From Actinomycetota bacterium (GTDB taxonomy: Bacteria; Actinomycetota; Acidimicrobiia; Acidimicrobiales; Ilumatobacteraceae), in contig JAPLAA010000008.1 in the NCBI GenBank assembly GCA_026393475.1, forward strand, positions 37,689 through 101,688: 64,000 bases of DNA, written 5' to 3'. The notes beneath the pieces were generated by a model, which saw only the letters and a program-made list of their open reading frames with translations, was not told the DNA's origin and ran no database searches. How positions within the stretch are numbered: position 1 is the stretch's first letter; every line of letters begins with the position of its first letter. A program made the translations under genes and the position numbers. Shown piece after piece: positions 9,246 through 32,721 of this stretch.

Positions 9246-9300
9246 GATCAGTTCAGGATCAGTTCAGGATCAGTTCAGGATCAGTTCAGGATCAGTTCAG
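9246..9300. repeat. Five perfect 11-nt tandem repeats (GATCAGTTCAG)
   Basis: Five exact units occupy 9246-9300 between htpX and sufC. On the minus strand each unit holds TGA twice, so the array gives stops in all frames just after sufC, whose own stop is at 9308-9310. The rest of the 9120-9245 gap shows no gene. Confidence 0.85.
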
Positions 9301-9307
9301 GAGCGGA

Positions 9308-11659: not shown

Positions 11660-11719
11660 CTGTCTGGATAGGAGAAATTCCCCAGTCCTCCACCTCGGCG
11701 AGGTGCGATCTCCGACCGC

Positions 11720-11763
11720 GGATCAGTCGCGGATCAGTCGCGGATCAGTCGCGGATCAGTCGC
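11720..11763. repeat. Four 11-nt tandem repeats (GGATCAGTCGC) holding a stop codon
   Basis: Four exact units. The gene-proximal unit contains the TGA stop (11756-11758) of the four-Cys protein gene, and the others repeat TGA every 11 nt, covering all minus-strand frames. Confidence 0.85.
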
Positions 11764-12103
11764 GACGGCGGAAGAAGCGCTTCAGGCCCTTGCGCTGGGC
11801 GGCCAACCGCTCGGCCTCGAGCTCGGCCCGCACCTGGGCGCCGATCGCGTTGAGATGGTCCTCGGCCTCGTCCAACACTGCCGCGGCCGTGCCGTCGTCG
11901 AGGCCGGGCGGCTCCACGGGCGTCTTCGGCGGCACCACGGTGCCGTAGGTCCAGCCGGCATCCATGCGCCGCTCGTACTTCGGACAGTTGTCCGGGCAGC
12001 GCCACGGCGCATCCGGGGCCAGGTCGAGGTTGCACTTCCGGACGGTGTCACCGTTCGGGTACGTGCGGCTCTCGTAGTTCTTGCACTCCTGGCGCATCGG
12101 CAT
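11756..12103 (-). CDS. Conserved small protein with four cysteines, in the Suf region
   Basis: I do not recognise a named family. The 115-residue protein has four cysteines in its first half (ECKNYE, RKCNLD, RCPDNCPKYE) spaced like a metal or Fe-S site, a linker rich in Pro and Gly, and a C-terminal helix ending in basic residues (RKGLKRFFRRRD) that may bind nucleic acid or membrane. Its place between sufD and the metallo-hydrolase gene suggests a link to iron-sulfur biogenesis or sensing. A CAGACT hexamer lies 6 nt before the ATG. Confidence 0.75.
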   Translation of the reverse strand: MPMRQECKNYESRTYPNGDTVRKCNLDLAPDAPWRCPDNCPKYERRMDAGWTYGTVVPPKTPVEPPGLDDGTAAAVLDEAEDHLNAIGAQVRAELEAERLAAQRKGLKRFFRRRD

Positions 12104-15201: not shown

Positions 15202-15245
15202 GGGCGACCCTCGAGTGACCGTCGGGCGACCGTCGGGCGACCGTC
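15202..15245. repeat. Four 11-nt tandem repeats (GGGCGACCGTC)
   Basis: Units at 15202, 15213, 15224 and 15235 (two exact, two with substitutions) fill the convergent gap. The oxidoreductase stop (15250-15252) lies 5 nt beyond the last unit. Confidence 0.75.
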
Positions 15246-15249
15246 GAGG

Positions 15250-20739: not shown

Positions 20740-20744
20740 TCCTC

Positions 20745-20854
20745 GTCACCCAACCGCGACGTCACCCGACCGCGACGTCACCCGACCGCGACGTCACCCG
20801 ACCGCGACGTCACCCGACCGCGACGTCACCCGACCGCGACGTCACCCGAACAGG
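20745..20854. repeat. Seven-copy 16-nt tandem repeat (GTCACCCGACCGCGAC)
   Basis: Six full units (20745-20840) plus a partial seventh fill the convergent gap. Each unit carries TCA, a minus-strand TGA; the last one (20842-20844) is the stop codon of the MauE-like gene. With a 16-nt period the stops run through all three frames. Confidence 0.9.
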
Positions 20855-28980: not shown

Positions 28981-29814
28981 GTGGAGCATCCCGAGCAGCG
29001 GCCCGCCGATCGACCCCTCGACGTCGCGACCGCGCTCGGCACGTATCTCGAGATCGTCGACTCCTGCGCTCCCGGCCTCGTCGAAGGCCTCTACGTGGTC
29101 GGATCGTTCGCGCTCGACGACTGGCGACCCGGACACAGCGACATCGACATCGTCGCGGTGACGGCGGAACCGGCGACCGACGAGGACGCGGCCAATCTCG
29201 TCACGGCCCATGCCCTCCTCGCGGAGCACCAGCCGCGTCCGTTCATCGACGGGCCGTACCTCGCGTGGGGCGACCTGATCACCCCGCCGATGTCGCTGCA
29301 CCGTCCCTGGAGTCTCGATGGTCGGCTGCACCACGACGGCGACTGCTTCGAGCTGAACCCGGTCAGCTGGTACGTCCTCGCCAGCCACGGCGTCACCGTT
29401 CGCGGACCGTCGGTCGAGAGGCTCGGCATCTACGTCGACGTCGACGCCCGGGTGCGTTTCGTGGTCGACAACCTCGCCTCGTACTGGGCACCGCTCGCCG
29501 ACGACGTGCACAAGGCGTGCAACGCCGACCCGACCCGCGCCTTCGACCCGGACAGCTTCGAGTGGTGCGCGCTCGGCGCGCTCCGACTGCACCACACCGC
29601 ATTCCGTGGCGGTGTGGTCTCCAAGCGGGGCGCCGGCGAGTACGGCCTCGAGGTGGCACCCGAGCGATACGGCGAGGTGCTCCGCGAGGCGATGGCGGTG
29701 CGCGCCGGGACGTCGAGGCTCACCTCGGTCGGCACCGAATGGATGCACGTCGCGGCCGACCTGATCCAGTGGTGCACCCGCTCGGTGGCTGCCGCGGCGG
29801 CGCCCGGCATCTAG
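28981..29814 (+). CDS. AadA-like nucleotidyltransferase domain protein
   Basis: The 277-residue protein has the polymerase-beta-type nucleotidyltransferase core VVGSFALDDWRPGHSDIDIVAVT (GS-x10-D-x-D), followed by a helical C-terminal domain with EWCALGALRLHHTAF. This resembles aminoglycoside 3''-adenylyltransferases and the related DUF4111 proteins. It may adenylylate an antibiotic or an unknown small molecule; resistance cannot be claimed from sequence alone. GTG start. Its TAG stop overlaps the TAG stop of the convergent histidine kinase as CTAG. Confidence 0.8.
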   Translation: MEHPEQRPADRPLDVATALGTYLEIVDSCAPGLVEGLYVVGSFALDDWRPGHSDIDIVAVTAEPATDEDAANLVTAHALLAEHQPRPFIDGPYLAWGDLITPPMSLHRPWSLDGRLHHDGDCFELNPVSWYVLASHGVTVRGPSVERLGIYVDVDARVRFVVDNLASYWAPLADDVHKACNADPTRAFDPDSFEWCALGALRLHHTAFRGGVVSKRGAGEYGLEVAPERYGEVLREAMAVRAGTSRLTSVGTEWMHVAADLIQWCTRSVAAAAAPGI

Positions 29815-31220
29815 GTGTGCGGCGTCGGCCGCTCGTCGGGGGATCTGAAGATCGCCGAGGCGATCGTGCCGCCACCGTCGCGAGCGCTCAGCTCGACGGA
29901 TCCGCCCGTTGCCTCCACCAGCCGTTGCACGATCGCGAGGCCCAGACCCGAGCCGCCGCTCCGGGCATCGGGCGCCCGCCAGAAGCGGTCGAAGGCGTGG
30001 GCCCGCTGCTCGTCGGTCATCCCCGGGCCGCGATCGAGGACACGCACGGCGACGCCACCGCCGGCACGGTGCACCACCACCTCGAGCGCCGAACCCGGCG
30101 GTGCGACCCGGAGCGCGTTGTCGAGGAAGTTGTCGATCACCTGCTCGGCCGCCTCCGGCGCGGTGAGCACCCGTGCCGCCGGGATCGACGAACAGGTCAC
30201 GCGGACACCGGACTCCTCCGCGAGGGGCTGCCACATCTCGACACGCTCACGGGCGACGACCGCGAGATCGACGACCACCGGTTCCACCGTGCGACCTTCG
30301 GTGCGAGCGAGCATGAGGAGTTGGTCGACCAGGTGCTGGAGTCGTTCGGTCTCGGCGCTCGCCGCCTCGATCCGCAACTTGGCCTCCTCGGGATGGTCGT
30401 CGACGGCATCCGCGGCCTGCTCGAGCCGCACCCGGAGCGCGGTGAGCGGGGTGCGGAGCTGATGCGACGCATCGCCGGCGAACGATCGCTGGGCCGCCAG
30501 CAGCGACGACAGCCGGGCCGACATCGTGTTGAACGAGCGCGCCAACGAGCGCACCTCGGGCGGCCCTTCGTCGTCCGGCGCGCGCACGCCGTCCTCACCG
30601 GTCGCGAGACGCTCGGTGGCGAGGCGGAGCCGCCGGAGCGGACGGGTGACGGTGTTGGCGAGCGCCCACGCGGCGACGAGCGCCATCAGGACGGAGATGA
30701 CCGCCACCACGAGCAGACCGCGCACGCGCCGTTCGACCCGTTCGTCCACGACCGATGCCGGATAGGTGAGCCGGACGACGCCCTCGACGTCGTTGCCCGA
30801 CAGCACGGGCACCGAGACGAACAGCAACTCGGTGCCGAGGGTGCGCGACGGTCGTCGGCCCCTCTGCGGCGTGCCCGCCGCGGCCGCGGCGATCTCGGGA
30901 CGCGTGGAGTAGTCGGCTCCGGCGGCGGCCTCCTCGTCGGAGATCACCATCGCGATGCCGAGGTGGTCGGTGACGATCACCCGCGCGCCCGTCGAGGTGC
31001 GGTACTCGTCGACGAGCGCCTGCAGCGCCGGGTTGGCGCGGGCGGTGCCCAGTTCGAGTGCCTCCTCCGACCTGCCCGCGATCACGAACGCGTCGCGCTC
31101 GAGGCCCGTGATGATCCGATCGCGCTCGACCCTGCGGAGGTGTCCGGCGAGCGGGAGGTCGTGGGCCAGCAGCACGGCCACCGTGATGCCGACCAGGACG
31201 GCGACCAGGCGCCACCTCAT
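29811..31220 (-). CDS. Sensor histidine kinase (HAMP, HisKA, HATPase_c)
   Basis: Start at ATG 31220 (469 residues); the track adds a stretch overlapping the regulator gene. The order is TM1 (about 3-25), an extracytoplasmic region of about 125 residues, TM2 (about 150-172), HAMP, the phosphoacceptor QRSFAGDASHQLRTPLTALR, the N-box DNFLDNALRVAPPGS, and G-boxes DRGPGMTDEQRAHAFDRFWR and GSGLGLAIVQRL. It is a complete kinase of the BaeS/CpxA-like class. The regulator gene lies 10 nt upstream, so the two form an operon. The sensed signal is unknown. Confidence 0.93.
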   Translation of the reverse strand: MRWRLVAVLVGITVAVLLAHDLPLAGHLRRVERDRIITGLERDAFVIAGRSEEALELGTARANPALQALVDEYRTSTGARVIVTDHLGIAMVISDEEAAAGADYSTRPEIAAAAAGTPQRGRRPSRTLGTELLFVSVPVLSGNDVEGVVRLTYPASVVDERVERRVRGLLVVAVISVLMALVAAWALANTVTRPLRRLRLATERLATGEDGVRAPDDEGPPEVRSLARSFNTMSARLSSLLAAQRSFAGDASHQLRTPLTALRVRLEQAADAVDDHPEEAKLRIEAASAETERLQHLVDQLLMLARTEGRTVEPVVVDLAVVARERVEMWQPLAEESGVRVTCSSIPAARVLTAPEAAEQVIDNFLDNALRVAPPGSALEVVVHRAGGGVAVRVLDRGPGMTDEQRAHAFDRFWRAPDARSGGSGLGLAIVQRLVEATGGSVELSARDGGGTIASAIFRSPDERPTPHT

Positions 31221-31230
31221 GGCGCGACGG

Positions 31231-31959
31231 TCATGCGGGGACCTCGAGCCGGAAGCCGACACCGCGGACCGCCTCGATCCACCGATGGTCGCCGAGTTTC
31301 TTGCGCAGGGCGGCGACGTGGGCGTCGACGGTCTTGGTCGGCCCGTACCAGTGGGCGTCCCACACGTTCTCGAGGATCTCGGTCCGCGTCGAGACCGCCC
31401 CGGGATCGCGGGCGAGGTGGGCCAGCAGGTCGAACTCCTTCGCCGTCAGCTGGATCTCCACGCCGGACACGAACACCCGCCGGGTGCGCCGGTCGATCTC
31501 CAGCGGTCCGATCTGCTGACCGGTGGGCGCGGCGGAGCCATCGGGCCCGCTCGGCTGCTCCCCCGCGTCGGCCCCACTGGCCGCGTCGGGGACCCCGTCG
31601 AGCTCGACCCGGCGCGCCAGCGCACGGATGCGGGCCACCAACTCGCGGAAGCTGAACGGCTTGGTGACGTAGTCGTCGGCACCCAGCTCGAGACCGAGCA
31701 CGCGGTCGAACTCGTCGGACCGGGCGGTCAGCATGATGATCGGCACTCGGCTGCGGCCGCGCAGCACACGGCACACGTCGCGACCATCCATGTCGGGCAA
31801 CCCCAGGTCGAGCAGCACGACATCGGGGGTCTCGGCCGCCTCCAACTCGATCGCCGCGACGCCGGTGGCGGCACGGATCACGGCGTACCCGGCGTCGGTG
31901 AGACCGTCGACGAGCGACACCGCGATCGAGTTGTCGTCCTCGACGAGCAGGATCTTCAC
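31231..31959 (-). CDS. OmpR/PhoB family response regulator
   Basis: GTG start at 31959 (242 residues), with a CAGAAT hexamer 6 nt upstream. The receiver domain has the acidic pair LLVEDDN, phosphorylation site LLDLGLPDMDG (D51) and the Lys in VTKPFSF. An unusually long linker (about 30 residues of Gly, Ala, Pro and Asp) leads to a winged-helix DNA-binding domain with LTAKEFDLLAHLARDPGAVSTRTEILENVW and KTVDAHVAALRKKLGDHRWIEAVRGVGFRL. Its partner kinase is immediately downstream. It probably binds the six 11-bp direct repeats in the divergent gap. Confidence 0.95.
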   Translation of the reverse strand: MKILLVEDDNSIAVSLVDGLTDAGYAVIRAATGVAAIELEAAETPDVVLLDLGLPDMDGRDVCRVLRGRSRVPIIMLTARSDEFDRVLGLELGADDYVTKPFSFRELVARIRALARRVELDGVPDAASGADAGEQPSGPDGSAAPTGQQIGPLEIDRRTRRVFVSGVEIQLTAKEFDLLAHLARDPGAVSTRTEILENVWDAHWYGPTKTVDAHVAALRKKLGDHRWIEAVRGVGFRLEVPA

Positions 31960-32007
31960 GGCTGCATTCTGCCCGTCACGGCTGCCGCCACGCTGGTCGC
32001 CGCCGCG

Positions 32008-32073
32008 TCTTGCACCAGCCTTGCACCAGTCTCGACCCAGTCTCGCCCCAGTCTCGGACGTTTCTTGGACGTT
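32008..32073. promoter_or_regulatory. Six 11-bp direct repeats, probable response-regulator binding array
   Basis: Units TCTTGCACCAG, CCTTGCACCAG, TCTCGACCCAG, TCTCGCCCCAG, TCTCGGACGTT and TCTTGGACGTT are contiguous between the regulator gene and the divergent gene at 32116. OmpR/PhoB proteins bind as dimers to 11-bp direct repeats, so this fits autoregulation and control of the neighbour. Confidence 0.6.
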
Positions 32074-32102: not shown

Positions 32103-32108
32103 TAACGT
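32103..32108 (+). promoter_or_regulatory. -10 hexamer TAACGT, leaderless-type
   Basis: TAACGT, 7 nt, GTG 32116. The direct repeats at 32008-32073 end 30 nt upstream, overlapping where the -35 would be contacted. Confidence 0.5.
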
Positions 32109-32115
32109 GGCACGG

Positions 32116-32631
32116 GTGAAGACCCGGACCGCGACGCTCCTGTCGATCGCGGGCGTGCTCGCGGCGAGCTCGGTGGCCGCGATCGTGAACGCCCAGGTGC
32201 TCGACACGTCCGACGACTCGCGCACCCCGGTGCCGGTCGCGGTGACCACCACGATCGCCGTCGCCGACACCGGCGGCGCACCGGAGTCGTCCGTCGCGGT
32301 CGGCACGGACGTCTCGGCCGCTCCCACCGTCTCGATCGACCCGCTCGCGACGACGAGCATCCAGCCGCCTGCGGCCGCCGACCCCTCGGTCCCTGCCGGC
32401 AGCGCGCCGCTCGACCCCTCGCCGATCGCACCGCTCGCCACGACCGCCTCGGGTCAGACCGAATCGCCGGCCACCGGACCTGGCGCACCGGCGACCACCG
32501 GCGCACCGGCGACCACCGGCACCACCGGCACCACTGCGGCGACGGCCACGCTCCCTTCGGGCACGGCGGGCGGCAGCGACGACGATTCGCACGACGATTC
32601 GAGCGACGACCGCAGCGACGACGACGACTGA
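32116..32631 (+). CDS. Exported low-complexity protein with Asp/Ser-rich tail, divergent from two-component genes
   Basis: Not a known family. GTG start gives 171 residues; the longer track ORF is in frame but spans the regulator gene. An N-terminal hydrophobic stretch (TLLSIAGVLAASSVAAIVNA, about 6-25) looks like a signal peptide or anchor. The rest is Thr/Ala/Pro-rich with repeats (GAPATTG twice, TTGTTGTT-type), ending in a strongly acidic SDDDSHDDSSDDRSDDDD tail that could bind cations. The gene shares a control region with the response regulator, so it may be its regulated target. PepSY-containing neighbours of similar kinases often have such acidic linkers, but no PepSY is present. Confidence 0.65.
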   Translation: MKTRTATLLSIAGVLAASSVAAIVNAQVLDTSDDSRTPVPVAVTTTIAVADTGGAPESSVAVGTDVSAAPTVSIDPLATTSIQPPAAADPSVPAGSAPLDPSPIAPLATTASGQTESPATGPGAPATTGAPATTGTTGTTAATATLPSGTAGGSDDDSHDDSSDDRSDDDD

Positions 32632-32663
32632 GCGACGACTGAACGACGACTGAACGACGACCG
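32621..32663. repeat. 11-nt tandem repeats (CGACGACTGAA) repeating a plus-strand stop
   Basis: TGA occurs at 32629 (the actual stop of the acidic protein), 32640 and 32651 within near-identical 11-nt units, giving stop codons in all three plus-strand frames. Confidence 0.85.
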
Positions 32664-32688: not shown

Positions 32689-32721
32689 TCAGCAGTGGAT
32701 CAGCAGTGGATCAGCGAGGGG
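32689..32721. repeat. 11-nt tandem repeats (TCAGCAGTGGA) repeating a minus-strand stop
   Basis: TCA occurs at 32689, 32700 and 32711; the last is the stop codon of the LOG gene. The first two units are exact and the third is degenerate. All three minus-strand frames are closed. Confidence 0.8.

Follow-up and report, generated by a model that had tools for sequence, protein, structure and literature searches.

What do six contiguous 11-bp direct repeats do between a two-component operon and a divergently transcribed gene for an exported protein, and how many of them does the regulator use? The question arises in a window of 64,000 nucleotides (the whole stretch analysed) from a member of the Ilumatobacteraceae whose genome is a 136-contig draft. 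A sequence-only reading had proposed that the repeats, placed in front of an OmpR-type regulator gene, hold three regulator dimers that would cooperatively switch both the two-component genes and the divergent gene. The locus is laid out as follows.

29811 to 31220, minus strand: sensor histidine kinase (HK), with HAMP, HisKA and HATPase_c domains (Pfam)
31231 to 31959, minus strand: OmpR/PhoB-type response regulator (RR), receiver and winged helix (PF00072, 4e-27; PF00486, 1e-22)
32008 to 32073, plus-strand order: six 11-mers, TCTTGCACCAG, CCTTGCACCAG, TCTCGACCCAG, TCTCGCCCCAG, TCTCGGACGTT, TCTTGGACGTT
32116 to 32631, plus strand: divergent exported protein with an acidic C-terminal tail (translation and orthologue comparison)

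The six units are present as described, with 43 of 55 identities at lag 11 against an expectation of 28% (binomial tail 2e-14). Over lags 9 to 13, the best self-match reached 0.56 in 20,000 shuffles, compared to 0.78 in the real array. The array is located in the promoter region common to the RR-HK operon and the divergent gene, and the regulator gene is of the OmpR type, as had been stated: the receiver and the C-terminal winged helix both exceed their Pfam cutoffs, which places the protein in the OmpR/PhoB family. None of the named subfamilies modelled in NCBIfam (CseB, CreB, MtrA, PhoB, PmrA and CopR) reached its curated cutoff, the best model being CseB with 205 bits against a cutoff of 350. 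Read on the RR strand, from far to near the RR, the units are AACGTCCAAGA, AACGTCCGAGA, CTGGGGCGAGA, CTGGGTCGAGA, CTGGTGCAAGG and CTGGTGCAAGA. They are of two kinds, four of the type CTGGnnCnAGn and two of the type AACGTCCnAGA, and only the latter kind is kept in relatives.

To identify the part of the array that is conserved, we gathered relatives of the RR from 222 genomes of the family and a sample of the order, and inspected their upstream regions; a search of assembled contigs yielded distant relatives only (40-52% identity), which were left out of the box analysis. A two-unit box, TCCAAGA-N4-TCCAAGA on the RR strand, was present in 49 of the 60 distinct regions upstream of an RR, where a box was called from a match at 11 or more of 14 positions. 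In the window, this box consists of the last two of the six 11-mers in plus-strand order, the pair nearest to the divergent gene.

32052 to 32069, minus strand: box 1, the conserved candidate regulator site, TCCAAGA-aacg-TCCGAGA (TCTCGGA-cgtt-TCTTGGA when read towards the divergent gene), score 24.7

Under a scoring model built without the genus of the window, box 1 is the sole position this good among the 709,366 scanned in this genome. Head-to-tail half-sites with 11-bp spacing, conserved together with the regulator gene in 49 of 60 regions, are what an operator of the OmpR/PhoB type looks like. The regions in which no box was called belong mostly to other families of the order, to second copies within one genome, or to a genome of the same genus as the window (G002), in which the stretch searched also held no relative of the divergent protein. 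Some more distant regions show a different repeat of 11 bp, such as TGGCAAAGCTT-TGGTAAGG in L022. Further box sites, at G000 C104 and C21 and at G001 C103, were considered as regulon members and rejected by their gene context, with tRNA-like sequence adjoining; at G000 C104 and G001 C103, an integrase ORF lies beside it. Repeats of the TCCAAGA type with 11-bp spacing are found beside tRNA-like sequence at L152 6925-6953, where there is an integrase ORF, at L155 4400-4428 and at L153 6326, and these are possibly integrase-related sites instead of regulator boxes.

The remaining four units were compared to the same box model.

32008 to 32025, minus strand: box 2, weaker, TGCAAGG-ctgg-TGCAAGA, the first two 11-mers in plus-strand order, score 13.7
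32030 to 32051, no strand assigned: in-register spacer, the third and fourth 11-mers, CTGGGGCGAGA and CTGGGTCGAGA on the RR strand, score -3.4

Only 3 of the 709,366 positions score as high as box 2, and its units match 5 of 7 and 6 of 7 positions of the box core; such a second box is partly expected, since it arose inside a tandem array. Box 2 ends 48 nt before the RR start and falls in the 47-48 nt class, a distance at which the box is found in several other genera as well. The closest relative (L002), with an RR that is 91-92% identical, carries three units, namely the box and one copy of CTGGGGCGAGA. The distance from box 1 to the RR start is 92 nt in the window vs. 59 nt in L002, and the difference is exactly 33 bp, or three units. 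Four of the six units are lineage-specific, and L002 has one of these. We read the four extra units as a recent local tandem expansion.

These comparisons bear on the proposal that all six units are equivalent and that three cooperating dimers throw a sharp switch on both genes. Contiguity and register are as that proposal would have them, three good units stand in a row in G003, and sites of Escherichia coli ArcA contain up to five 11-bp repeats, with footprints that can span a repeat-less stretch (PMC3798270). Against this, the middle pair scores below zero under the box model, only two units make up the conserved box, and four of six are confined to the lineage, so that six equivalent half-sites and the count of three dimers are not supported; we consider this account unlikely. 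We therefore take the array to comprise one strong site and one weak site, with two spacer units that keep the phase lying between them, rather than three equal dimers. The repeats had also been expected to recur in close relatives that have both genes. Here the outcome is split: the relatives lack the six-unit array, and the two-unit core is the part that recurs. Likewise, the idea of an OmpR-type site common to the two-component genes and the divergent acidic exported protein survives for the two-unit box conserved with the RR family, not for the six-unit array. Cooperative switching is plausible.

Tandem repeats of this size are not peculiar to the locus. Further 11-bp tandem arrays with different units occur inside the window, extragenic and mostly beside stop codons at gene 3′ ends (9246-9302, 11717-11764, 15202-15246, 32621-32661 and 32689-32715), so period-11 arrays are not rare in this genome; at the same threshold, none was found in approximately 645 kb of assorted other bacteria. 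Arrays of 13, 14 and 16 bp are found elsewhere in the same genome as well, and at 20744-20849 of the window a 16-bp unit is repeated 6.6 times between two converging gene ends. A genome-wide excess of arrays of exactly 11 bp was considered and rejected, 13-bp arrays being equally common in the sample stretches of the genome compared outside the window. The tendency of the genome is to short arrays in general. Because period-11 arrays are not rare here, an 11-bp period alone is no proof of a regulator site, and the evidence lies in conservation. The four extra units might accordingly be a neutral tandem expansion, one among many short arrays, with box 1 alone functional. The several other extragenic arrays of 10-16 bp near stop codons, and the contrast with the assorted bacteria, speak for this; the resemblance of the two units nearest the RR to the box core, the position of box 2 at the standard 48-nt distance and the preserved phase to the RR promoter speak against it. 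On balance we regard neutral expansion as a serious but less probable possibility.

Towards each of the two promoters, the geometry is given relative to a -10 or -10-like element.

32103 to 32108, plus strand: TAACGT, -10 element of the divergent gene; the gap to box 1 is exactly 33 nt
31966 to 31971, minus strand: CAGAAT, -10-like element of the RR operon, placed 6 nt ahead of its GTG start

On the divergent side, the gap between the box and a TANNNT element is 33 nt in 42 of 49 regions, 32 nt in 6 and 34 nt in 1, and all six 32-nt gaps come from one genus. The divergent promoter has the TANNNT -10 and no recognisable -35. A composite pattern consisting of the box, 32-34 nt and TANNNT matched in 10 of 61 genomes, once in each and always at the RR locus; the reversed pattern, used as a control, gave zero matches in the 61 genomes, and boxes with gaps of 24-31 nt to TANNNT gave a single match, away from any RR locus. 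These results also bear on whether some other regulator binds the box, its tie to this RR being positional only. We consider that very improbable, given that the box accompanies the RR orthologue throughout the family, that the composite pattern is confined to the vicinity of the RR, and that an 11-bp head-to-tail repeat suits recognition by the OmpR family.

On the RR side, NANAAT is conserved at positions -12 to -7 in the RR orthologues, and its location 6 nt ahead of the start codon suggests a leaderless transcript. Distances from the box to the RR -10 cluster at approximately 15, 27, 35, 47, 57.5 and 80, and the concentration of phase is highest for a period of 10.5-10.75 bp (R = 0.82, p near 8e-7 for 21 genus-level states, an approximate value because these states are related and not fully independent); for three outliers, at distances 15-16 and 27, the phase fit is loose or the -10 call uncertain. 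Duplication of 11-bp units, instead of selection, could account for part of the helical spacing; the shifts within genera, approximately 9.5, 10, 12 and 22 bp, nevertheless include values that are no multiple of 11 bp. Tentatively, and with somewhat less than even confidence, we suggest that across the family the box stays locked at 33 nt on the divergent side and that its distance to the RR promoter changes by whole helical turns, such that 11-bp duplication would act as a ratchet that retunes the RR promoter while leaving the divergent one undisturbed; the window would then capture this process shortly after a second box had been rebuilt at a standard distance.

The likely target of the switch can be approached through the genes downstream of the divergent promoter. 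In relatives, synteny links the RR-HK genes to those for an exported protein, for ApbE and for a membrane protein of MsrQ-like type (PF01794): in most relatives that were examined, the divergent gene comes first in an operon whose other members encode a further exported protein, ApbE and the MsrQ-like protein. Among the operon proteins, Pfam E-values were 3e-56 for ApbE and 2e-6 for Ferric_reduct, the latter at the cutoff. The genome of the window and its closest relative carry an operon with an intact copy of the exported protein on another contig (C130 in the window genome), with a box of its own that again lies 33 nt from a hexamer (TCTACT). Beyond the RR locus, two loci with a box 33 nt before a hexamer, ahead of similar exported-protein genes, were identified, one at G001 C16 / G000 C130 and one at G015 C16. 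ApbE and the PF01794 protein stand side by side in relatives and on contig C130, as in the MsrQ-like flavinylation clusters; among the exported proteins scanned, from part of the genomes, there was no Pfam match to an FMN-binding domain.

No Pfam family fits the exported proteins that were scanned. The divergent genes of most relatives, together with L156 6443-7234, encode an exported-protein family with a conserved core of approximately 70 aa and an Asp/His/Glu-rich tail, for which there is no Pfam family; the divergent proteins of the window and of L002 both lack this core. The second gene of the divergent operon (L236, L232, L237 and L240) encodes a conserved exported protein just before ApbE, often with an SG-containing tail end such as SGTTSASG or SGGS, and two members scanned had no Pfam match. 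This second protein could be a flavinylation substrate. ApbE/MsrQ-like clusters are known in Actinobacteria and have been linked to extracytosolic electron transfer (PMC8238504), and by that tie the switch probably controls extracytosolic flavin-based electron transfer.

Taken together, the sequence comparisons make it most likely that the system is an OmpR-family switch, autoregulated and serving an extracytosolic flavin/redox module. In the proposed mechanism, a phosphorylated RR dimer would bind box 1, centred at about -54.5 from the divergent transcription start, and would recruit RNA polymerase to the divergent promoter. Box 1, or the adjacent box 2 in this genome, would act on the leaderless RR-HK promoter from the same helix face. 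The tandem expansion would have shifted box 1 by exactly three 11-bp units from the RR promoter with helical phase unchanged, and would have re-created a weaker box at the standard distance. The target would be the exported acidic protein, which in relatives heads the operon with ApbE and the MsrQ-like, ferric-reductase-type membrane protein. The comparisons show that the box is conserved, with its spacing, helical phase and synteny, and that the composite promoter is specific to the locus; from these we infer binding by this RR, activation over repression, cooperativity and the physiological role. As a whole, the explanation of the array as the operator of the divergent promoter under the adjacent OmpR-family RR, with box 1, expanded units and a redox target, is one that we hold with good confidence.

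Among known systems, the closest parallel is E. coli ArcA, of the OmpR/PhoB family, with an 18-bp box of two direct repeats spaced 11 bp centre to centre; many of its sites have additional repeats in an 11- or 22-bp register, as the array of the window has, and weak sites can lie beyond a repeat-less stretch (PMC3798270). The sequence here is TCCAAGA, the six units exceed the two to five reported for ArcA (PMC3798270), and ArcA is a global regulator, whereas the composite promoter pattern here occurs only at the RR locus. The PmrA box, CTTAAT-N5-CCTAAG, likewise has head-to-tail half-sites with 11-bp spacing, one of which is bound much tighter (PMC3973317); CTTGGA here and CTTAAG in PmrA are similar in outline but differ in bases, and the match of the RR to the PmrA model is far below cutoff. 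Streptomyces CutRS resembles the present system as an actinobacterial two-component system that acts on exported-protein genes (PMC12802291); for CutR, the motif is TAWATAAA, with no 11-bp repeat reported and no box found at its own promoter (PMC12802291). The MsrQ-like flavinylation clusters of Actinobacteria (PMC8238504) share ApbE and the PF01794 membrane protein with the operon described here, but no FMN-binding-domain protein turned up in the Pfam-tested operon, which instead comes with uncharacterised exported proteins and a divergent two-component system. We found no description of this two-component system in the open-licence literature searched, and it appears to be an undescribed one, tied to genes for extracytosolic flavin transfer and to acidic exported proteins of an unnamed family. 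Elements of this kind are already known; the novelty lies in this member, in its two-sided geometry, which is conserved, and in the link to a flavin/redox operon. The 49 sequence versions of this divergent operator form a natural series, fixed on one side and varying by helical turns on the other.
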